From Pseudovibrio sp. M1P-2-3 (lineage in GTDB: Bacteria; Pseudomonadota; Alphaproteobacteria; Rhizobiales; Stappiaceae): a DNA stretch of 64,000 nt. Under the pieces are notes generated by a model that was not told where the DNA came from, ran no database searches, and worked only from the letters and a program-made list of their open reading frames with translations. The position numbers were made by a program, and so were the translations under genes. The number at the start of each line of letters is the position of its first letter. Positions within the stretch are counted from its first letter, which is position 1. Below, one piece after another: positions 22,927-41,295 of this stretch. The stretch covers positions 124,001-188,000 of the forward strand of contig NZ_JARRCW010000002.1 of assembly GCF_031501865.1 (NCBI RefSeq), in the 5' to 3' direction.

Positions 22927-24552
22927 CTATTCGCATTCAGGCTCCGCCTGTTTTTGAGCAGCCTCAAAATTCCACGGCAGTAGTTCATGGATGCGTTTCT
23001 GCTTGTGTCCGTTGGCGATTCTGGTCAGCGTTGTGGTGAGGTATGCCTGCGGGTTGATACCAGTCAGTTTGCAGGTCTCCATCAGTGACGCCAGAACGGC
23101 CCACGTCTTGCCGCCCGCATCATGGCCTGCAAAGAGAGCATTCTTACGATTAAGAGCCACAGGTCTGATCGTCCGCTCGACACAGTTGCTGTCCAGCTCG
23201 ATGCGGCCATCGGTCAGAAACAACGTCAAGCCATCCCACAGTTTGGCAATATAGGTGAGGGCCTTGCCCAACGGGCATTTGGGCGACACGCGGGCGCGAT
23301 GAGTGCTGAGCCATTGATGGAAGGCCTCAATAAGCGGTTTGCTGTGCTGCTGCCGTGCCTGGTGCCGCAGCTCTGCCGACTGACCGCGGATACGCTCTTC
23401 GATTTTATAAAGCTGTCCAATCTGGCGCAGGCCTTGTTCAGCTATGGGCGCTGATTTGTTGCGGGCCACTTCAAACAGTTTACGGCGGGCATGGGCCCAG
23501 CAATAAGCCAGAGGAACCGGGGAACCTTGTCGCTCCTGCAATCGATTATAACCGGTATAGCCATCCACCTGCAGCATCCCTTCAAACCCTTGCAAGATCG
23601 CTTCTGCCACCGTGCCAGATCGGGAGGGGGCGTAGGTAAACACCACGCCGGGCGGCTCCGCCCCGCTCCACGCCCGATCATCCCGGGCAAGTGCCCAGAG
23701 GTACCCTGTTTTGGTTTTCCGGCGCCCGGGATCTTGAACCGGCACCACGGTCTCATCCATGAACAACTTACTGGAGCCTTTGAGGTGGTCCTTTAGCGCC
23801 TCATAGACGGGGGTAAGTTCATAGGCACAGCGGCCCATCCAGTCGGCCAGTGTCGAGCGGTCGAGCTCAAGGCCCTGACGGGCATAAATCTGGGCTTGCC
23901 GGTAGAGGGGAAGATAGTCGCCATACTTTGAGATAACCACATGGGCCAGCAGCGCTTCGGTGGGCAGACCGGCCTCCACAATATGGCTTGGGGCTGGCGC
24001 CTGCGTAATGCCCTCTTCACAGGTACGGCAGGCATATTTGGGACGGCGGGTGACAATCACCCGAAACTGGGCCGGAATCACATCCAGGCGCTCCGATACA
24101 TCCTCCCCGATCTGATGGTACGCATGACCACAGGTACAGGTGGTGCTCTCAGGCATCACCATCACCTCAATCCGGGGCAGATGGGTCGGCAGATTGCCGC
24201 GGTTGGTGTTGCGTTTCTTCTTGTCCTTTTTCTTAGGCTGGCTGTCTTCGTCCGCTTCAGCCTGAACAGACGCGATTGCGGTTTCCAGTTCTTCCAGTTG
24301 CAACTGGATCTGGTCCGGATGGATCTTTTCCGATCTTGAACCAAACAAGGCGCGCTTGTAATCTGCCAGCAGTTTTTCCAGCTGTACGATACGCGCATCC
24401 TGCGCCGTTACCCGCTGTTCAGCGGCGGCGAGCTTGACTTTTAACATGTCAATGTCATCGGGACAGGAAGCAGGATTTTGCATGGCAAAGGTATAGCAGA
24501 AACAGTCAGTTACCCCTAGGTCACTCATTGGATATTCCTGACTATTCAACAC
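22927..24552 (-). CDS. tnpC: IS66 transposase TnpC
   Basis: A 541-residue transposase catalysing movement of the IS66 element. It has an N-terminal coiled coil (LKVKLAAAEQR... about residues 36-75), a lysine-rich linker, a zinc-binding segment (CTCGH ... ACRTCEEG) and the IS66 catalytic core (for example LFMDETVVPVQDPG, YCWAHARRKLFEVA, DSNCVERTIRPVALNRKN). The ATG at 24552 overlaps the tnpB stop by 11 bases; an internal ATG at 24483 (MQNPAS) is a possible alternative start. The frame is intact, unlike the second copy, which has a one-base deletion in the zinc-binding region. Confidence 0.92.
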   Translation of the reverse strand: MLNSQEYPMSDLGVTDCFCYTFAMQNPASCPDDIDMLKVKLAAAEQRVTAQDARIVQLEKLLADYKRALFGSRSEKIHPDQIQLQLEELETAIASVQAEADEDSQPKKKDKKKRNTNRGNLPTHLPRIEVMVMPESTTCTCGHAYHQIGEDVSERLDVIPAQFRVIVTRRPKYACRTCEEGITQAPAPSHIVEAGLPTEALLAHVVISKYGDYLPLYRQAQIYARQGLELDRSTLADWMGRCAYELTPVYEALKDHLKGSSKLFMDETVVPVQDPGRRKTKTGYLWALARDDRAWSGAEPPGVVFTYAPSRSGTVAEAILQGFEGMLQVDGYTGYNRLQERQGSPVPLAYCWAHARRKLFEVARNKSAPIAEQGLRQIGQLYKIEERIRGQSAELRHQARQQHSKPLIEAFHQWLSTHRARVSPKCPLGKALTYIAKLWDGLTLFLTDGRIELDSNCVERTIRPVALNRKNALFAGHDAGGKTWAVLASLMETCKLTGINPQAYLTTTLTRIANGHKQKRIHELLPWNFEAAQKQAEPECE

Positions 24553-24895
24553 CTTGCGGCGCTTTTACTTCCAAAGCTCTCACCTTGCGCCAGTCAAGAC
24601 CGCTAAACAGGGCTTCGAACTGGGCGTGAGACAGGTTCATCACCCCATTGCGGATTTGCGGCCAGCAAAACAGCGTCTCTTCGAGCCGTTTATAGACCAG
24701 CACCAAGCCGGTACCATCCCAATAAACAAGCTTCATGGCGTCCCCGCGTCTGGAGCGAAACACAAACACCGTGCCGGTAAACGGGTCCAACCGTAACTCG
24801 TTTTGCACCAAGGCGGCCAGGCCATTATGGCCTTTGCGAAAGTCAACCGGCTCTGTCGCTATCAAAATCCGTAGATGCTGCGCCGGCAGGATCAT
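24542..24895 (-). CDS. tnpB: IS66 accessory protein TnpB
   Basis: A 117-residue IS66 TnpB (Orf2 family) needed with TnpA and TnpC for transposition. Family motifs are visible: PVDFRKGHNGLAALV, GTVFVFRSRRGD, LVYWDGTGLVLVYKRLE and FSGLDWRKVRAL. Start and stop overlap the neighbouring genes (ATGA with tnpA, 11 bases with tnpC), typical of translational coupling. Confidence 0.93.
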   Translation of the reverse strand: MILPAQHLRILIATEPVDFRKGHNGLAALVQNELRLDPFTGTVFVFRSRRGDAMKLVYWDGTGLVLVYKRLEETLFCWPQIRNGVMNLSHAQFEALFSGLDWRKVRALEVKAPQGVE

Positions 24896-25317
24896 CGATG
24901 CGCCTCCAACGCCAGGACAAGCTCAGCAAGGTGGCTCACTGGAATGTCAGATGGCAAATCCAGCTTAACCCGGCCAACCTTCAGCCGAATGGTTCCAAGG
25001 GACGCCTTATCGCGGGGGGAGTGAATGGGGTCTGAAGAATACTCAGGCGGAAGGCTTTCCAACTCCTGCTCTTGCGCAACCTCCTCTTGAAGTACCAAGG
25101 CTGCAAAGTTGGGCAGCGCCGCATTTTGATCTATTTGATCTTCATCTTCGGAGCTATCTGGTTCACTGACCTGTCGGCGCCAGTGGTAGATTTGCGAGCG
25201 GGAGACACTGTGGCGTCTGGCAGCGTTTGTAACACCAAGGCTATAGCTGTCCTTGAGTATCTGCACCCGCTGTAACGCTTGTGCTGAAGTGCTATTTAAA
25301 CTTGTAAGGTCAGACAT
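24892..25317 (-). CDS. tnpA: IS66 TnpA (helix-turn-helix)
   Basis: A 141-residue protein with an N-terminal helix-turn-helix (YSLGVTNAARRHSVSRSQIYHWRRQV, about residues 25-50) and a C-terminal conserved segment (IRLKVGRVKLDLPSDIP). It is the first gene of the IS66 operon. Its start follows a GGAGGAT ribosome site. Confidence 0.92.
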   Translation of the reverse strand: MSDLTSLNSTSAQALQRVQILKDSYSLGVTNAARRHSVSRSQIYHWRRQVSEPDSSEDEDQIDQNAALPNFAALVLQEEVAQEQELESLPPEYSSDPIHSPRDKASLGTIRLKVGRVKLDLPSDIPVSHLAELVLALEAHR

Positions 25318-29779: not shown

Positions 29780-30382
29780 TTATGACATGCCGTACTTAAA
29801 CTCTACATCATTAACTATCCCGCTGTTTCGCACATTAAGAAGTGCAGCAGAATATTGAGCAAGCATACGAATGCCGTAGTCGAGTCTATCCCTCAAACGA
29901 TCATTGTCCTCATTTAGCTCGCCATTAAAAAGGCTCTCTACATTTCTCAAAATCACATGATCAGGTAGATAACAAATGTGACTGTTCTTATAGGCAAAGG
30001 CTCGTAACTCAGTCATCGGAGCAAATCCTCCTTCACCTGCTGAAACAGACACTATCAAAGCAGGCTTGTGACCAGTTTCTTTTACACTCGCGAGCATGAG
30101 TAGGTTTTTTAGACGAGGTGGAACCATCCCACCCCATTCTGGAGTAACAATGATAAAAGCGTCAGAAGATGCCAAGTTCTCTGAGGTTTCAAACCATCCA
30201 TCCCAAGAAGAATGTCCGTCCCACACTCCTTCATTCCATATCTCGATGTCAGCAGAACAAAGTTCAATTCTATCAACTTCACCAAAAGCATTTAGTACAG
30301 CAGGCATGTTAGACAGATAGTCTGTTATTCTACTACTTTGAGACTTTTCTCTATGACTCCCGTTAATTATACAAAGTTTCAT
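29780..30382 (-). CDS. NADPH-dependent FMN reductase-like flavoprotein
   Basis: A 200-residue flavodoxin-fold protein. The phosphate-binding loop reads GSHREKS (8-14) and the second flavin-contact loop reads TPEWGG (80-85), followed by VPPRLKNLL, as in NAD(P)H:FMN reductases of the ArsH/azoreductase-like group. Its start overlaps the stop of the WD40 gene upstream (ATGA), so translation is coupled. In this operon it may provide reduced flavin or carry out a redox step on the pyrimidine/triazine intermediate. I am not aware of a counterpart in the core toxoflavin gene set, so its role is inferred only from position. Confidence 0.8.
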   Translation of the reverse strand: MKLCIINGSHREKSQSSRITDYLSNMPAVLNAFGEVDRIELCSADIEIWNEGVWDGHSSWDGWFETSENLASSDAFIIVTPEWGGMVPPRLKNLLMLASVKETGHKPALIVSVSAGEGGFAPMTELRAFAYKNSHICYLPDHVILRNVESLFNGELNEDNDRLRDRLDYGIRMLAQYSAALLNVRNSGIVNDVEFKYGMS

Positions 30383-32211
30383 TGTAAGTTTTCCGCCTCA
30401 CTTAACGCTAAGTTTGTTTCACCTACAGGCAATATCTGCTCACTATGTATTATGTAGTTTTTTATTGTCCCACCACGCCCCATTATTGAAACTACGCCTG
30501 TCTTCGAAATATTAATCGCCTTCATGTGCTCGGCGCCGTAATAACAGGAGTCCAGCACATCCCCACTAACAATATCTCCTAAATATATCCTATTGGCATA
30601 GTTAATAAAAACAACGTAAGAACCAAATACGACAAAGTCTTCTACAGTATTTGCCTCAGAATTCACGAACTGAACATCGTGGTACCATACACCATCGTCT
30701 CTATATACTTTATCTATTGCCGATCTATGCGTTACAAGCAGTACATCAGGGCTTAACCACTTCATCCTCTTAGGCAGCTTACCTGAAGTCTTCTCAACAA
30801 CTTGATGGGAGTTTGTATCAAGTAGATATATAGAGCCTCCTCGCTCACCAACTGCTAATATCTCTCCAGTCGGAGAGACTGCAATCGACCAGATCGGTTC
30901 AGATGAGCGGAAAATTTCTATAGTCTTATCATTTAGGAGCTGAAGCACACGACCATCTTCAAGAGCGACATAGAAGCAACTGGTCTTAATACTAAAAGAA
31001 ATGTCCCTGACTGCTGCAGAAAAATCAAAAGACTTAATCTTCTGATTATCTTTAATTAAATAGCCCTTACCGCAAGTTGAACCGAGCAATGCTTCACTAT
31101 TTTTTCCGAGCTCAATACGTTTGAAATATCCACCTTCCAATGAAAGCTTCTGTAAGACTTGAGCAGTTCCCACAACCACTGGCCCTTCAGACTGCAAACC
31201 AATTCTTAAGACCAGACCCTCCTCACCACATGCAATAATATCATCATTATGATTACAGCATGACCAAACGGCTGGAGGTGTCTGTTTAAACTCAGAAATT
31301 CTCTCTCCAGTATCACAGTTGAACTTAATGATTGATCCATCGCGAACCTGCACAAAAGCTATAGAGGGATCCGCCTCACTAAACTTCACCCATCTCGTCT
31401 TAAATGGAGCTTTAAATGCAACTTTTATTGGATTTAGGTTGGCCGGATCGATTTCATAGACGTTTCTATCAAAACTTGATGCCAGCAAGCGTCCACCTTT
31501 GCTCCTCGTAACATGTTCAAGGTCATCATTAGTAAACAGCTCTCCAAATTGACAATCCAATGCGAAAGTATCAGTCTTACGAACAACAACTCTGACTAGA
31601 AATCGCTGATCACACGCTGCAATAAACTCATCTGAACCAACCTCCTCAAACCAATGAAAAGTTTCAACGATCTTGTGAGGAGAAACAAATGTCTCAACAT
31701 GACCATTGGCATAAACACCAATGCAGCCATTATTGGTTCCGAAAAGAGCATAACTACCACATGAAGAATACTTAGTTGTTATGATGTCATAGAAAGAAGC
31801 TCGACCAGAACTTAAAACGTTACCCTGAAAGTCCAACTCAACAATGGAAGAGTTACCCGTCCGAGTGATCAATTTCGCTTCAGTCGGATGAAGATCAACG
31901 GCTTGAGATGTCGAGTGAATAGGTTCGACATCGTCAATGCCTTCGAGGCGGATGTTTTTCCGAAAAATCTGACTGATGGAATTTTGATCTTCATACGATC
32001 CGAGAAAGATCTCACGGCCACCACCCATTGCAGCGATTAGTTTACGCGCAGGACAAATGGAAATTCCGTCGATCATTCCATCGTGAGCTGCAAACTCACC
32101 TTGAACATCAAGTTGCTCATTTAGTATCAAAATCTTGCCGTATCGAGTGCCTGCGAACAGCATCTTGGCTTGGCCATCATATGCAAATGAGTTAGCCGAC
32201 TGGTAGAACAT
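30379..32211 (-). CDS. Large beta-propeller (WD40-like) protein, first of two
   Basis: About 610 residues from the ATG at 32211 (MFYQSANSF), which follows a GGGGGCGG ribosome site. An alternative in-frame ATG at 32268 lies before the terminator-like hairpin and would add 19 residues encoded across it. The protein consists of divergent propeller blades (AAHDGMIDGISICPARKLIAAMGG, ILAVGERGGSIYLLD, VALEDGRVLQLL; parts shown) with no signal peptide or catalytic motif. It is more diverged than the second WD40 gene of the operon. It overlaps the next gene by four bases. It stands directly downstream of the 28-codon peptide gene, so it is a natural candidate for the partner that binds that peptide; this is inference. 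Confidence 0.8.
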   Translation of the reverse strand: MFYQSANSFAYDGQAKMLFAGTRYGKILILNEQLDVQGEFAAHDGMIDGISICPARKLIAAMGGGREIFLGSYEDQNSISQIFRKNIRLEGIDDVEPIHSTSQAVDLHPTEAKLITRTGNSSIVELDFQGNVLSSGRASFYDIITTKYSSCGSYALFGTNNGCIGVYANGHVETFVSPHKIVETFHWFEEVGSDEFIAACDQRFLVRVVVRKTDTFALDCQFGELFTNDDLEHVTRSKGGRLLASSFDRNVYEIDPANLNPIKVAFKAPFKTRWVKFSEADPSIAFVQVRDGSIIKFNCDTGERISEFKQTPPAVWSCCNHNDDIIACGEEGLVLRIGLQSEGPVVVGTAQVLQKLSLEGGYFKRIELGKNSEALLGSTCGKGYLIKDNQKIKSFDFSAAVRDISFSIKTSCFYVALEDGRVLQLLNDKTIEIFRSSEPIWSIAVSPTGEILAVGERGGSIYLLDTNSHQVVEKTSGKLPKRMKWLSPDVLLVTHRSAIDKVYRDDGVWYHDVQFVNSEANTVEDFVVFGSYVVFINYANRIYLGDIVSGDVLDSCYYGAEHMKAINISKTGVVSIMGRGGTIKNYIIHSEQILPVGETNLALSEAENLQ

Positions 32212-32237
32212 ATCCGCCCCCAGGAAGAAAAGATTAA

Positions 32238-32259
32238 AGCCGAGAGTTTCCCCTCGGCT
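32238..32259 (-). terminator. Intrinsic terminator/attenuator between peptide gene and operon
   Basis: On the minus strand AGCCGAG (32259-32253) pairs perfectly with CTCGGCT (32244-32238) across an 8-base loop and is followed by TTAATCTTTTCTT. It begins 29 bases after the stop codon of the 28-codon peptide gene and precedes the preferred start of the WD40 gene. Partial termination here would give many peptide transcripts per full-length operon transcript. Confidence 0.65.
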
Positions 32260-32288
32260 ATATTCCATAAGTAAACAAAAAACTAAGT

Positions 32289-32375
32289 TTACTTCTCACC
32301 ACGCACGCGGAGCTGCTTGTTTCCGCGAACACTATTCTTACCTGTACGCTTAGTAGTCTTTCTCAAGATAACCAT
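32289..32375 (-). CDS. 28-residue basic peptide heading the azapteridine-like operon
   Basis: An ATG-to-TAA frame of 28 codons too short for routine gene calling. It starts MVILRKTTKRTGKN and ends QLRVRGEK; about 11 of 28 residues are Lys or Arg, with no cysteine and no aromatic residue. It has the best ribosome site in the region (TAGGAGAT, 7 bases before the ATG), a sigma70-like promoter close upstream and an intrinsic-terminator-like hairpin immediately downstream. It shares strand and spacing with the biosynthetic genes that follow. These traits fit a small peptide that serves as substrate, carrier or leader for the downstream enzymes. It does not resemble any ribosomal protein or leader peptide I know. 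A transcription-attenuating leader peptide is an alternative, but there is no run of one regulatory amino-acid codon. Confidence 0.65.
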   Translation of the reverse strand: MVILRKTTKRTGKNSVRGNKQLRVRGEK

Positions 32376-32412
32376 GCTTATATCTCCTAATTAAAGCGTG
32401 AGTTACTAAGGA

Positions 32413-32441
32413 AATGTACTTATTAACTAAGTATACGTCAA
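32413..32441 (-). promoter_or_regulatory. Sigma70-like promoter of the peptide/azapteridine operon
   Basis: On the minus strand TTGACG (32441-32436) is separated by exactly 17 bases from TACATT (32418-32413). Transcription would start about 30 bases before the peptide ATG at 32375. The surrounding 240-bp intergenic region is strongly AT-rich and divergent with the MFS gene. Confidence 0.55.
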
Positions 32442-32618: not shown

Positions 32619-33800
32619 ATGAAGCTTCTGATATTATTTTTTGCAAATTTCATAGCATCGATTGCGATGGGAATCTCACTCACAATTGTGCCTTGGGAAC
32701 TCGCTCAAACCAGCGGTGGTGCAAAATTCTTAGCCTTTACGGCCACCTGGTCTACCGCAGTGTTAATATTTGTTTCCCCTATCGCCGGACGTTTAGTCGA
32801 CAGCATATCACGACGCTATTCGCTAGTATTATGTGTTGTTATCATGGCAGTCGTTTTACAGCTAGCTGCTATCGCTTATGGTAGCCAAGTATTCAAGGTC
32901 ATCAGTTTAAGCATTTTCTATTTCTGCTCTCAAATATTTTTCCTGTTTTTTTACAATGCATTAAGCGCATTCATACAAGAAATTTTCAAAGATACAGAAC
33001 GTGGCAAAGTGAATGGTTGGATGCAGGCCGAGATGCAGGCCGCGACTTTCGTCGTCGGCCTTCTAATGATTTATTTAGTAAATGAAAGAGATTTCCAGCT
33101 TGCTCTTATGATAAATGGTGGCTTGCTGGTAATTGCTGCGATTTTACTCCGTTTAATTACATACACACAGAAAAAGAGAGCCGCGCGAGCAAAAACTTCT
33201 AAAGATGTCTATCGAGTGATATTTAGTCGGCTAGATCTAATTTTACTTGGCATTGGCGGTAACATTACCTTCGTCTGCGTAATGATGCTAAACATTATTC
33301 ATCCAGTCTATTTCAACAATGTACTTAACCTAGAAATTGCAGCCTTAGCACAACTTTCCATATCTTTCGGTATAGGCGCGGGCTTGGGAGGTTTCTTTAT
33401 TGGGAGGTTTGTTTCTGACACCTCCGCATTACCTATTATCAAAATCTGCCTTCTTGTCTATTCAGGATCACTTTTGACAATCTGCCTGAACCCTCAACTA
33501 GTGACAATCTTAGTACTGTATGGCGTTATGGGCGCTACTGGTTCTGCTATTCGAGTAGCCTTCAATACCTACGTCATGAGTGTGATAGATACATCGATTT
33601 TCGGAAGTTATTTAGGTGTCATCAGTACACTAACTTATATACAACGAACTATATTTGGCCTCATGCTTGGCTTGATAATAAGTGTTTTCCCAAACTCAAA
33701 CTATTACTGGTTTGCTTTTGCAATCATTTCGTTCGGGGCTCTTTGTATTCTAATCGCTTCGGTAACCACATCTGAGCAAAAACTAGAAATGGAATACTAG
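32619..33800 (+). CDS. MFS transporter divergent from the azapteridine-like operon
   Basis: A 393-residue integral membrane protein of the major facilitator superfamily with about 12 predicted helices. It has an MFS loop signature after helix 2 (GRLVDSISRRYSL), a charged central loop (TQKKRAARAKTSKD, about residues 186-200) and a short polar C-terminus. The ribosome site is GGAG, 7 bases before the ATG. It is transcribed away from the biosynthetic operon across the shared AT-rich region and is low in GC like that operon, so it most likely exports the pathway product and protects the producer. MFS exporters are commonly linked to toxoflavin-type clusters. Confidence 0.82.
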   Translation: MKLLILFFANFIASIAMGISLTIVPWELAQTSGGAKFLAFTATWSTAVLIFVSPIAGRLVDSISRRYSLVLCVVIMAVVLQLAAIAYGSQVFKVISLSIFYFCSQIFFLFFYNALSAFIQEIFKDTERGKVNGWMQAEMQAATFVVGLLMIYLVNERDFQLALMINGGLLVIAAILLRLITYTQKKRAARAKTSKDVYRVIFSRLDLILLGIGGNITFVCVMMLNIIHPVYFNNVLNLEIAALAQLSISFGIGAGLGGFFIGRFVSDTSALPIIKICLLVYSGSLLTICLNPQLVTILVLYGVMGATGSAIRVAFNTYVMSVIDTSIFGSYLGVISTLTYIQRTIFGLMLGLIISVFPNSNYYWFAFAIISFGALCILIASVTTSEQKLEMEY

Positions 33801-34046: not shown

Positions 34047-34757
34047 ATGAAAGTCCCAAGTTCATTTGCCCGCCTGAATGGTTTCCGTTTTCCTCGAGAA
34101 GTTATCGCTTACGCTGTCTGGGCGTATTATCGCTTCGCTATGAGTACGGCCGATGTTGAAGACCTTTTGGCGGAACGTGGCGTTGTTGTCAGCCGGGAAA
34201 CTGTCCGGTTATGGGTTAACCGCTTTGGGCGCCATTTTGCAGAATGCATCCGCAGGGACCGACCAAAACCCAATAGGAAATGGCATCTGGATGAGGTCGT
34301 CATTTCAATTAGTGGGAAATAATATTGGCTCTGGCGGGCCATTGACGGGGATGGGGATGTGCTCGATATTTTGGTGCAAACCCGCCGTAATATCAAAGCA
34401 GCTCGCCGTTTTTTCAAGAAACTGGTTGCGCAATATGGCGAGCCACGAGTGGTGGTGACTGATAAATTGCGCAGCTATATCAAACCGGTCAAGGCTCTTG
34501 CACCTAAAGCAGATCACCGGGCACACAAAGGGTTGAATAACAGTATTGAAAATTCTCATCGGCCCACAAGAAAACGAGAGAAGATCATGGGGCGGTTCAA
34601 GTCGCTCCGGCAAGCACAACGGTTCCTCTCGGCATTTGATCAGATCAACACTATTTTCCGTCCTCGCCGTTATAAACTATCCGCTCTCTCCTACCGCCAC
34701 GCCAGAAATGATGCCCTCAAACTTTGGACCGGCTACACAGCCAAAATGGCGGCCTGA
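34047..34757 (+). pseudogene. IS6-family transposase with in-frame stop
   Basis: Reading through one TAA at 34320-34322 gives a 236-codon IS6/IS26-type DDE transposase. It shows the helix-turn-helix (TADVEDLLAERGVVVSRETVRLW), WHLDEV (first catalytic Asp), VVTDKLRSY (second Asp) and ENSHRPTRKREK with the catalytic Glu. The stop falls between SISGK and YWLWRAIDGDGD, both well conserved, and the frame is unchanged afterwards. It is a point nonsense mutation and the element is probably dead. Confidence 0.85.
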
Positions 34758-34878
34758 ACCTTAAACAAATAAGGCTTAAACAACCCACATCAAACAACTT
34801 GATGAAATGAACACGCCCCTCCGGCCTCGCAGTGAGGCATACTGATGTGCGTTAATTAAGCGATCAAGAGGAACGTTC

Positions 34879-35907
34879 ATGACTAAGATTGTAACGGTTG
34901 GGTTGGATCTTGCGAAATCCATCTTTCAGGTACACTGCGCGGATGAAGCGGGAACCCCTTTGCTTCGCAAGCGGATGCGACGTGGTCAAGTCATAGAGTT
35001 TTTTGCGGGTATCGAGCCCTGCCTCGTTGGCATGGAGGCTTGCAGCAGCGCGCATTACTGGGCTCGTGAATTGCAAGCATTGGGCCATGAGGTGAAGCTG
35101 GTTCCACCGCAAGATGTCAAACCGTTTGTAAAGAGCCAGAAGAACGATGCGGCTGATGCAGAAGCAATCGCCGAAGCGGTTCAGCGCCCGACTATGCGTT
35201 TTGCAGCAATAAAAAGCGCGGAACAGCAATCTCTTCTAGACCTGCATCGCACTCGCGAACTTCTGGTACGCCAGAAGACAATGTTGATCAATGCAATCCG
35301 CGGCCATTGCGGCGAGTTCGGCCTCGTGGTAGGCGCTGGCGCAGCAAAGGTTAGCGAACTTATCATAGTCATCAAAGACTCGAAAGACACTCGTCTGCCA
35401 GCCCTAGCACGTAAAGCCCTGAATTTTTTGGCAGAGCAGTTGAAAGAAACGCAAACACAGATCAAGGCGCTGGAAAGAAAGCTTAACGAGTGGCACACCG
35501 ACAATGAAGACAGCAAACGGCTGGAGACGATTCCCGGAGTTGGCGTCATCACTGCGACCGCGCTGGTTGCAACAATCGGCGATGTTACCCAGTTCCGCAG
35601 TGCCCGCCAGCTTGCCGCATGGCTCGGCTTGGTGCCTAAACAGTACTCGAACGGCGGTAAGGAAAAATTAGGAAGAATATCGAAACGCGGTGACGGCTAT
35701 CTGCGCAAGCTTCTGGTTCACGGGGCAAGGACAAGTTTGGGCTGGTCCCGGCGAAAACAGGACGGTTTGTCCCAGTGGCAAAAGGCATTGCTTGAACGGC
35801 GCCCGACCAACGTAGTCCTGGTTGCCATGGCCAATAAAATGGCGCGCACCGTCTGGGCCCTGCTCAGCAAGTCGCAAACATATCGGTACAACTCAGTGGA
35901 AGTATAA
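34879..35907 (+). CDS. IS110-family transposase, intact copy
   Basis: A 342-residue DEDD transposase. The RuvC-like catalytic acids are visible: D10 (GLDLAKS), E53 (GMEAC), D90 and D93 (KNDAADAEA). The C-terminal Tnp20-type domain carries IPGVGVITATALVATIGD, ARQLAAWLGLVPKQYSNGGK and RGDGYLRKLLVHGAR. It begins after GAGGAACGTTC. This is the full-length partner of the truncated copy at 25396-26129. Its 3' end at 36155 joins a fragment of an IS6 transposase gene, suggesting insertion into that older element. Confidence 0.93.
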   Translation: MTKIVTVGLDLAKSIFQVHCADEAGTPLLRKRMRRGQVIEFFAGIEPCLVGMEACSSAHYWARELQALGHEVKLVPPQDVKPFVKSQKNDAADAEAIAEAVQRPTMRFAAIKSAEQQSLLDLHRTRELLVRQKTMLINAIRGHCGEFGLVVGAGAAKVSELIIVIKDSKDTRLPALARKALNFLAEQLKETQTQIKALERKLNEWHTDNEDSKRLETIPGVGVITATALVATIGDVTQFRSARQLAAWLGLVPKQYSNGGKEKLGRISKRGDGYLRKLLVHGARTSLGWSRRKQDGLSQWQKALLERRPTNVVLVAMANKMARTVWALLSKSQTYRYNSVEV

Positions 35908-38978: not shown

Positions 38979-40490
38979 CTATACTCCACTTTGTTGAGTA
39001 TAGTTCCATGGCAATAGCTCGTTAATACGATTGATCTTATGGTCTGCAATACGGTCAAGAACATAGGTAAGCCAAGCCTGCGGGTCGACCTTATTCAGCT
39101 TGGCAGTTTCAATGAGGGTGTAGGCGATAGCCATCGCCCTACCGCCCTTCTTAGAGCCGACAAACATCCAGTTTTTTCTTCCAAGGGCCACAGGTTTCAT
39201 TGCCCGCTCACAGCTGTTGTTGTCGATTTCCAGAAAACCATTATCCAGATAGGGCCGGACTTTCGGCAAACGGGTCAAGGCATAACGGATCGCTTTGGCA
39301 AGTGGAGACTTGCCCGAGATCTTTGGCAGCTGTGCGTGTAGCCACACTTCCAATTCATCCAGAACAGGTCTTGCATCTTGTTGACGAACGGCTTGCCGTT
39401 CCCCGGCGTGTTTCCCGCGAACTTTCTTCTCAATGGCGTAGAGTTTGGCGATTTTTAAGATCGCGTCTTGCGCTATAGCTGAACCGTTCGCTTGTTGGAT
39501 CTCTACAAATTTACGACGAATATGGGCCATACAAGCGACTTCTCGTGCCCGTTGTTCGCCAAAGACACCATTAAACCCCGCATACCCATCGGCATGAACA
39601 AAACCCTGATAGTTTTTCAAGTGCATTTGCGGATGTTCGCCCTTCCTATCAATCGTAAACTGATAGAATGCTGCAGGTGGCGCAGGCCCTGTCCAAGCCC
39701 GCTCATCACGTACATAGGCCCAGACCCTTGCGGTTTTGGTTCTCGATGTACCCGGTGCCAGGAGCTTGACCGGTGTGTCATCGGCAAAGAGCGCCTTGCC
39801 GGCTTGAACGTGTTTGCCAATGGCCTCGGCCAGAGGCTCCAGAAGGCATATCGATTGCCCCACCCAGCCTGCCAGAGTGGAACGGGACAGCTCCATCCCC
39901 TCACGGCCATAGATCTGGGATTGCCGGTAGAGCGGAAGGTGATCTCCGAATTTGCGCACCAGAACATGCGCCAGCAGGCCTGGTCCGGGGCGCCCTCGTT
40001 CAATAGGCCGCGATGGCAATGGGGCTTGTGTAAATGTCTCACAGCATGCGCAAGCTTTGCGGGGCCGCACAAGCCTGTTCACCACAAACCGTCCTGGAAT
40101 ATACTCCAGTTCTTCGGTAGTATCCTCGCCAAGTGTCTTCAGGGAGCCGCCTCAGCGCGCACATTCATCACCGGGCTCCAGAACCTGCGTGTTGCGTTGC
40201 AAGCTTTCGGGCAAAGACCAGCGCTTTGGTTTCGTTCTTTCCTCTTGGGTGACAACTGAATCATTCTCTTCAGGGACACTTGCAGCCAAAACCTCTTGAT
40301 GTTCAAGTGTCAGCAACAGCTGTTCAAGATTTTCTGACCGTGTCCCAAACCGGTGCCGATTGGCCCCATGCAGCTGATGTTGAAGTTGCTCTACCTTCAA
40401 GGAAAGCGCCTGCACCTCTTTGCTCAAAAGGGTTACGAGGCCTTTGAGTTCCCTCGGATTATCCGGCAAGTTGACAAGGACATTGAGCAT
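38979..40490 (-). pseudogene. tnpC: IS66 TnpC with in-frame TGA, copy 3
   Basis: Read through a single TGA at 40152-40154, this is a complete 503-codon IS66 transposase. It has an N-terminal coiled coil (KEVQALSLKVEQLQHQLHG), then LEPGDECAR, the stop, then [10 protein letters not shown] and [15 protein letters not shown] in the same frame. The catalytic core follows ([46 protein letters not shown]). The TGA stands where the second cysteine of a CxxC zinc knuckle is expected, one base change from TGC or TGT. The simplest reading is a nonsense mutation. It belongs to a different IS66 subgroup from the two other copies. Confidence 0.85.
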
Positions 40491-40570
40491 GGCAAACTTT
40501 TACCACACTCCACAGATACGCGGGTTATTAAAGCAGGATTTCCAACAGTAAATCTATGGAATTGAAAGGG

Positions 40571-40918
40571 TTAACCGTGTGTAAGCGGCTTCCATGTTGT
40601 CTGCGGCATACGCCAGTCAATTCCTTCTAAAAGGAGTGATAATTGTGATGCTGATAGACTGACCTTACCATCCTTAGCCGCGGGCCAGACAAAACTGCCG
40701 CGCTCCAATCTTTTGGAAAATAGACAACCGCCCTGTGTATCCCACCAGATGATCTTCAACAAATCGCCCCGTCGGCCGCGAAACACAAAAAGATGACCAC
40801 TGAACGGGTCTTCTTTTAAAATATTTTCCGCTCGGGCCGCCAAAGTATTAAAGCCACAACGCATATCTGTGATGCCTGCGGCCAGCCACACTCGTGTATT
40901 ACTGGGAACCGGAATCAT
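40571..40918 (-). CDS. tnpB: IS66 accessory protein TnpB, copy 3
   Basis: A 115-residue IS66 TnpB with [39 protein letters not shown] and [17 protein letters not shown] motifs (partly quoted). Its start overlaps the tnpA stop by four bases. Its C-terminus resembles the isolated tnpB remnant at 46371, showing that related elements occurred nearby. Confidence 0.92.
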
Positions 40919-41295
40919 GTGGTGAGCCCCGCGAGAACTGCGGTAAGCTGCTGCTCGCTCAAACAGCCACTCAGGCGCACTTCATGTCCTGCAATCAACC
41001 TGATTTCCATCACCAACTCTGAGGTAGAGGTAGTAAAGTTCGGTGAGCATTCAGGAGCTGACTTCTCAAATGCAGTTGCGTTTTCAACGCTAACCGGGAC
41101 AAAGGCTGTAGATACAGGGGTATCAATGGCAGGCTTTGGGGAAGGATTATAACGTTTGTCCTTAAGCCAATTATAAAGACGCCCTTTGTTAAGCCCGTTT
41201 CTGCGGGCAACCTGGGCGATAGATTCAGGGGACGACAAAGCTTCCTCACAAACGGAGCGTTTTTCCTCTTCACTCCAATACGTCTTATTATTCAT
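40915..41295 (-). CDS. tnpA: IS66 TnpA, copy 3
   Basis: A 126-residue protein with an N-terminal helix-turn-helix ([31 protein letters not shown], about residues 18-48) and the conserved C-terminal segment [15 protein letters not shown]. It is the first gene of the third IS66 element, overlapping tnpB. Confidence 0.9.

Follow-up and report, generated by a model that had tools for sequence, protein, structure and literature searches.

A tiny gene for a basic peptide marks a branch of toxoflavin-type gene clusters in three bacterial phyla

Results

A peptide gene at the head of a toxoflavin-type cluster

Our main finding, which is well supported, is that a short open reading frame (ORF) in Pseudovibrio sp. 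M1P-2-3 is a genuine, unannotated peptide gene and the marker of a peptide-bearing branch of the toxoflavin-type clusters. As established by comparison between genomes, this cluster type consists of a peptide gene, a beta-propeller gene that we label WD-B and homologues of ToxB, ToxC and ToxD, without ToxA, in three phyla. The ORF is probably a real gene whose product, a short ribosomal peptide, serves as the dedicated substrate (a RiPP-like precursor) of the enzymes encoded behind it. Tiny peptide genes at the same place in related clusters of other phyla suggest that these toxoflavin-like enzymes act on a ribosome-made peptide. In the open-licence PMC literature (titles and starts of abstracts; subscription journals lie mostly outside this scope), we found no description of a peptide in a toxoflavin-type cluster.

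The relevant features of the window (the whole 64-kb stretch of DNA that was analyzed) are as follows:

32619..33800, plus strand: divergent MFS transporter, a likely exporter
32413..32441, minus strand: sigma-70-like promoter, TTGACG-17-TACATT (promoter scan; hexamers invariant in three Pseudovibrio sequences)
32384..32388, minus strand: ribosome-binding site AGGAG of the peptide gene (sequence; kept in three Pseudovibrio sequences)
32289..32375, minus strand: basic peptide gene, 28 aa, MVILRKTTKRTGKNSVRGNKQLRVRGEK, ATG at 32375 and TAA at 32289 (sequence and Pseudovibrio comparison)
32228..32259, minus strand: terminator-like hairpin (32238-32259) plus T-rich tail, between the peptide gene and WD-B (scan, folding, comparison)
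30379..32211, minus strand: WD-B, WD40-type beta-propeller, 610 aa, marker of the peptide-bearing cluster type
29780..30382, minus strand: NADPH-dependent FMN reductase, 200 aa
28696..29700, minus strand: ToxD homologue (SUMF1/FGE-like), 334 aa
26986..28683, minus strand: ToxC homologue (WD40), 565 aa
26296..26961, minus strand: ToxB homologue (GTP cyclohydrolase II), 221 aa

The peptide has a net charge of +9, and AGGAG lies 9-13 nt 5' of its ATG. The hairpin has a stem of nine pairs (seven perfect pairs, a G-T pair and a G-C pair) and a loop of 4, followed by TTAATCTTTT. The original prediction had described a perfect 7-bp stem right after the stop codon; the stem is there and extends to nine pairs, but it begins 29 nt 3' of the stop codon. 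The scans found three promoter-like sites against 1.8 expected by chance, so that the promoter by itself is weak evidence, and one terminator-like hairpin against 0.4 expected. Because such sites are not much rarer by chance, the decision was left to comparison. The longest ORF of WD-B begins at 32268 and would overlap the hairpin. In P. ascidiaceicola, a 1-nt deletion lies between the WD-B ATGs at 32268 and 32211, which makes 32211 the likely start and the hairpin intergenic. An 8-bp inverted repeat seen by eye (AAGTAAAC...GTTTACTT, 32271-32296, minus strand) spans the peptide stop codon and is present in all three Pseudovibrio sequences, directly 5' of the GC-rich hairpin.

Pfam and NCBIfam gave no family match for the window peptide, and they revealed neither a recognised RiPP leader nor a known RiPP enzyme in the window cluster itself. 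The ToxB, ToxC and ToxD homologues, named after the genes of the Burkholderia glumae operon, lie side by side. Searches of the 64-kb window gave no match to ToxA or ToxE (Azospirillum queries, E 1e-3) or to the ATP-grasp protein of another ToxC/ToxD cluster type described below, and no LanB-like peptide aminoacyl-tRNA ligase was found among the ten window proteins scanned with Pfam. Transposase-like ORFs, noted by eye on both sides of the cluster (22927-25317, 34047-35907 and 38979-41295), may bear on how the cluster moved.

The peptide gene is conserved within Pseudovibrio

The Shine-Dalgarno (SD) site, start, stop, both promoter hexamers and the hairpin are kept in the window, Pseudovibrio sp. 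Ad37 and P. ascidiaceicola, so the 28-residue frame and the signals named in the original prediction are borne out in the sequence and in other genomes of the genus. Pseudovibrio sp. Ad37 has exactly the same peptide as the window, whereas that of P. ascidiaceicola has two other residues; the ToxD proteins of these two are 97-98% identical to that of the window. Six codons of the peptide gene are changed between the window and P. ascidiaceicola, four silent and two with a replacement (binomial p 0.038 against a nominal 25% silent, which is modest taken alone).

The 151-bp peptide region is present in 4 out of 16 Pseudovibrio genomes (identity 94-100%), and ToxD in three of the same 16. The fourth genome with the peptide region, G009, is split into 980 contigs; a 4,582-base contig carries the MFS gene, the peptide gene, a complete WD-B and a partial FMN reductase before it ends, and no ToxD was found elsewhere in these contigs. 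An MFS gene stands beside the peptide gene in G009 and also in L007 and L008. Comparison of the window peptide with 89 loci, and with 7,480 SD-preceded short ORFs from 85 of them, gave no relative outside Pseudovibrio. Since it has no sequence relatives there, its membership in the cluster type rests on position, layout and conservation.

Peptide genes precede WD-B in three phyla

A genome scan with a ToxD alignment confirmed at least 485 loci, of which the best 80 were used together with five plasmid loci. In this set, the only tblastn matches to the window WD-B from outside Pseudovibrio were in L038, L077 and part of L073, and two further loci (L009 and L078) were picked out through their FMN reductase. 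A short ORF lies 5' of the WD-B-type gene each time in L009, L078, L038 and L077. In L009 (65 aa) and L078 (61 aa) it encodes a precursor with a double-glycine leader, VAGG; in L038 and L077, both Aquabacterium, it encodes 23 aa and is followed by a GC-rich hairpin. The 38% G+C of the L078 locus makes its label as a Klebsiella pneumoniae MAG doubtful.

A profile of these WD-B proteins recognises WD-B in Paenibacillus, Halobacillus, Micromonospora and many Streptomyces loci. Upstream of these genes we found MVKKFVKPVRRIVKGNI, MKKATKKPVRRVVNVEQ, MIRKPVRRGVSSRKSAV, MTKLVRRVTRAAI, MRKIVRCTPWPWIS and others, with SD matches of up to 8 bases. Peptides of the MIRKPVRRGVSSRKSAV type occur as three tandem copies in L046 and in L066, and MTKLVRRVTRAAI as two copies in L050 and in L072. 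Tox-type clusters with WD-B are present in Pseudomonadota, Actinomycetota and Bacillota. The original prediction's test, a conserved short frame in related operons, came out in its favor: such a frame stands immediately 5' of the same beta-propeller gene in all three phyla, often followed by a hairpin.

The candidates are of three kinds: basic peptides of 13-29 aa with strong ribosome-binding sites and up to three tandem copies, double-glycine precursors of 61-65 aa, and PepSY-type proteins with a peptide-like tail. The last kind replaces the tiny peptide in seven actinobacterial loci (L033, L017, L067, L074, L108, L109 and L110), where a longer protein with an acidic (poly-Asp) stretch ends in a tail of 10-11 residues, for example GPIREGVTPSK, with a C-terminal lysine in all seven. 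The one tail protein scanned, that of L074, has a PepSY domain.

The layout closest to that of the window is found in L125, with a 29-aa peptide, a perfect terminator, WD-B, an FMN reductase (40% identical) and ToxB-ToxC-ToxD. An alphaproteobacterium (L124/L126) has ToxD, ToxB, ToxC, a ToxE-like gene and the FMN reductase on one strand and WD-B on the opposite strand, behind a longer ORF whose end, as cut by us, is GEGICCNPDLPSLKRLGKPLSPGSATGLAVTMNQ. On a Halobacillus plasmid (L127, 8961-12409), a DUF692 (MbnB/TglH/ChrH) gene and a gene for a hypothetical protein of 257 aa come after WD-B; these two genes would fit the partner pair known for RiPP enzymes of the MbnB/TglH/ChrH type.

In a sampling independent of ToxD, WD-B turned up in 10 genomes among 394 from the Streptomyces family, in 2 among 398 from the phylum to which the window belongs, in 1 among 296 from that of G064 and in 3 among 250 from the Aquabacterium family; these counts include each centre genome and are lower bounds because few candidates per genome were scored. 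The twelve stretches then compared contained ToxB in 12, ToxC in 11 and ToxD in 11, the exception (L117) being a contig of 13 kb. New places account for six of these stretches (L108, L109, L110, L114, L116 and L117), and the rest repeat known loci. The gene tables of two annotated records, which are incomplete, list no such peptide gene.

The association exceeds chance

Each of the 25 non-redundant WD-B loci whose upstream DNA is readable has a peptide candidate, 15 recognised automatically and 10 by eye (the seven tail proteins, L038 with its weak SD, L124 and L114). This set is without near-duplicates or repeats of the same place (L007, L008, L077, L066, L065, L111, L112, L113, L115 and L118), L039 (whose contig starts at the gene) and L073 (whose upstream bases are N). 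The automated test required an ATG-initiated ORF of 10-70 aa with an SD match at most 500 nt 5' of WD-B, and the other called genes of the same loci served as controls. With SD matches of at least 5, 6 and 7 bases, 16, 13 and 12 of the 25 WD-B genes scored, against 12, 5 and 1 of 195 other genes (Fisher p 4e-11, 1e-10 and 3e-12, values that overstate independence because several loci come from related Streptomyces). One of the 16 matches, in L067, was rejected as a chance ORF inside its PepSY gene. The sole control match at 7 bases is MFVKPVRRNVKAGIVTPV in L114, the displaced peptide of a WD-B cluster, which stands before ToxC instead of WD-B.

In the Streptomyces groups, most differences between copies are silent; in Aquabacterium and Pseudovibrio, silent changes do not strongly predominate. 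The MTKLVRRVTRAAI genes show zero replacements in 10 out of 10 comparisons and the RKPVRRG group 0-2 replacements against 0-6 silent changes over 28 comparisons; the Aquabacterium copies, with three changed codons, show two replacements against one silent change.

The pattern of an SD plus KPVRR was found at 14 sites in 11 of 394 Streptomyces-family genomes. Five in-frame ORFs of <30 codons match it, in three of the 394 genomes, each of which is one of the 10 that have WD-B (hypergeometric 1.2e-5, rising to 4.7e-4 when the genome behind the pattern is removed); as all three were known beforehand, this demonstrates specificity, not discovery. In-frame matches also occur in genomes without WD-B, in a 49-aa and a 191-aa ORF. 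A scan of the 85 loci (best 80 of at least 485, plus the five plasmid loci) for [KR]xVR[RC] near the start with an SD of at least 6 bases gave matches only in WD-B loci, and the match in L017 was set aside as chance.

The peptides are too diverse for one common motif. Across the 26 listed peptides (cores of long precursors cut by us), lysine is the only residue present in all 26, followed by arginine (25), valine (23), proline (21) and glycine (16); because the peptides are basic, the lysine is little surprise. The original prediction had stressed the glycines of the window peptide and its RGEK end. Neither argument is supported: 10 of the 26 do without glycine and among them only the Pseudovibrio peptides end in RGEK.

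When the spacers between peptide and WD-B were folded, 13 of 17 had z <= -1.9 (window -2.2). L125 and L009 have clear terminators and L010 a perfect 18-bp hairpin. Four spacers (L005, L119, L084 and L067) have no clear hairpin; the WD-B start is loosely matched in L005, L119 and L084, so their spacers may be cut short.

WD-B clusters differ from the canonical clusters

Clusters for toxoflavin, fervenulin and pseudoiodinine (tox, psd) combine ToxB (GTP cyclohydrolase II), ToxC (WD40) and ToxD (SUMF-like), as WD-B clusters do (PMC9911603). The WD-B type differs in its added peptide gene and WD-B, the absence of ToxA and the rarity of ToxE. With duplicates counted, ToxA-like genes occur in 0 of 36 WD-B stretches against 26 of 64 others, and ToxE-like genes in 2 of 36 (L124 and L125) against 25 of 64. 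This 100-row table is without the window, is drawn largely from the best 80 of at least 485 ToxD loci, and counts L006 and L126 among the stretches without WD-B, which in both cases lies elsewhere in the same record or genome. Given the absence of ToxA and the rarity of ToxE, the product need not be toxoflavin. The original prediction spoke of azapteridine-like enzymes; the ToxB, ToxC and ToxD homologues are there, but these are not plain azapteridine clusters.

In the midpoint-rooted ToxD tree of 93 tips, several of whose inner nodes are weakly supported, 24 of 27 canonical-labelled tips fall together and the WD-B tips lie in several clades. No conserved short ORF was recognised in the 26 loci with ToxA, by a test (E 1e-3) that could miss peptides of 13-18 aa. 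The 12 largest short-ORF clusters from these loci appeared by eye to be pieces of long genes or their out-of-frame shadows. Two Pseudomonas loci have a 'TGKN..GGK' look-alike ahead of ToxD, which was also rejected: it has no plausible start and sits in the ToxA-encoding stretch. The lack of a recognised short ORF fits the report in PMC9911603 that the operon of seven genes psdABCDEFG, without WD-B, yields the product in P. putida.

A further type of ToxC/ToxD cluster, the third, comprises 17 loci (L018, L019, L022, L031, L047, L049, L054, L060, L063, L070 and L080 among them) with an ATP-grasp ligase at least 40% identical to that of L019. Ten of the 17 encode small relatives of an L060 protein (123 aa, MGMRVGG...), and six loci have two of them. 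This kind may also be peptide-based.

Discussion

The WD-B clusters encode a putative precursor peptide beside conserved tailoring enzymes, the arrangement expected of a RiPP. Further RiPP-like signs are the double-glycine leaders, the HlyD gene in L078, the MbnB/TglH/ChrH-type enzyme behind WD-B in Halobacillus, the tandem precursor copies, and a stable enzyme set that goes with variable peptides. We identified no dedicated protease for the peptide. The VAGG leader shared by the L009 and L078 precursors and the HlyD gene recall the double-glycine-leader RiPPs (CTB-type bacteriocins); the L009 precursor scored 18.5 bits (E 0.0016) against the CTB family, below the curated cut-off of 32 bits, and the window peptide has no such leader and the tailoring enzymes differ. 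The enzyme directly behind WD-B in Halobacillus links that cluster to the DUF692 RiPPs, but it was seen in this WD-B cluster only (not every locus was searched) and the Halobacillus peptide has no cysteine. In PEARL pathways, a ribosomal peptide is the platform for small-molecule chemistry; in the WD-B clusters no PEARL ligase was noticed, and the enzymes present belong to other families.

That the window ORF is not a gene at all is hardly credible. The absence of sequence relatives outside Pseudovibrio and the modest silent-change evidence would allow it, but the ORF is kept with its SD in Pseudovibrio relatives, its position is matched elsewhere, and L125 has a 29-aa ORF, a perfect terminator, WD-B and an FMN reductase in the same order. 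The layout of short ORF, terminator-like hairpin and operon is also the classic one of a regulatory leader, in which translation of the ORF would control transcription past the hairpin (attenuation) and the peptide itself would be functionless. We consider this quite unlikely, given the tandem copies each with their own SD, the PepSY fusions and double-glycine leaders, the conservation of peptide sequence through silent changes, and the position of the peptide before ToxC in L114.

It is very unlikely that the gene encodes an independent, unmodified cationic peptide, such as an antimicrobial, immunity or regulatory one, that merely travels with the cluster: its basic sequence and the transporter nearby would suit that role, while its close association with WD-B and ToxB/C/D, which holds across phyla and in different cluster orientations, argues against it. 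The peptide might instead be a recycled carrier, with a small molecule built on its end or a side chain and then released, so that the peptide is not in the product. Building and release on a peptide platform is known from PEARL pathways, the basic leaderless peptides of 13-29 aa come without a protease gene, and ToxC/ToxD clusters of the ATP-grasp type have a ligase of the L-amino-acid-ligase kind beside small proteins. We nevertheless regard a carrier as unlikely, because the double-glycine precursor and HlyD gene of L078 suggest secretion of the peptide itself and no ligase stood out among those WD-B cluster genes that were classified. The original prediction, an order of peptide first, terminator and then enzymes with the peptide as substrate, donor or carrier, is matched at the level of gene architecture.

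Under the preferred reading of the peptide as dedicated substrate, the promoter would drive an abundant short RNA that stops at the hairpin, and read-through would reach the enzyme genes. WD-B, which is specific to the peptide-bearing cluster type, would bind the peptide, ToxB would open GTP to give a diaminopyrimidine, and the ToxC/ToxD pair would use an amine of the peptide, most likely of a lysine, in place of glycine. The FMN reductase would supply redox power, and the product would leave through the MFS protein or, in the double-glycine variants, through HlyD-type export. For pseudoiodinine, the proposal is that PsdC and/or PsdE (the ToxC/ToxD pair) join the pyrimidine with glycine, with formation of the N-N bond, and 1,6-DDMT feeding restored production in psdC and psdE mutants (PMC9911603). 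The simplest transfer of this proposal is that the WD-B branch takes the amine from the peptide, where lysine might replace glycine as a chemically natural amine donor. We tentatively put forward, as a possible though doubtful specific chemistry, that a lysine of the 13-29 aa peptide is where ToxC/ToxD assembles a GTP-derived pyrimidine or pyrimidotriazine, the lysine side chain (H2N-CH2-R) replacing glycine (H2N-CH2-COOH) in N-N bond formation and WD-B acting as the peptide-binding partner; this would be a new class of ribosomal peptide natural products.

If true, such a cluster type would be easy to miss, its key gene being too short to be annotated. The origin of the N-N bond and of the triazine ring in toxoflavin-type compounds is given only as a proposal in section 11 of PMC9911603. 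A branch that depends on a ribosomal peptide would open this question to direct tests, because its substrate is written in the DNA and is easily synthesised and varied.
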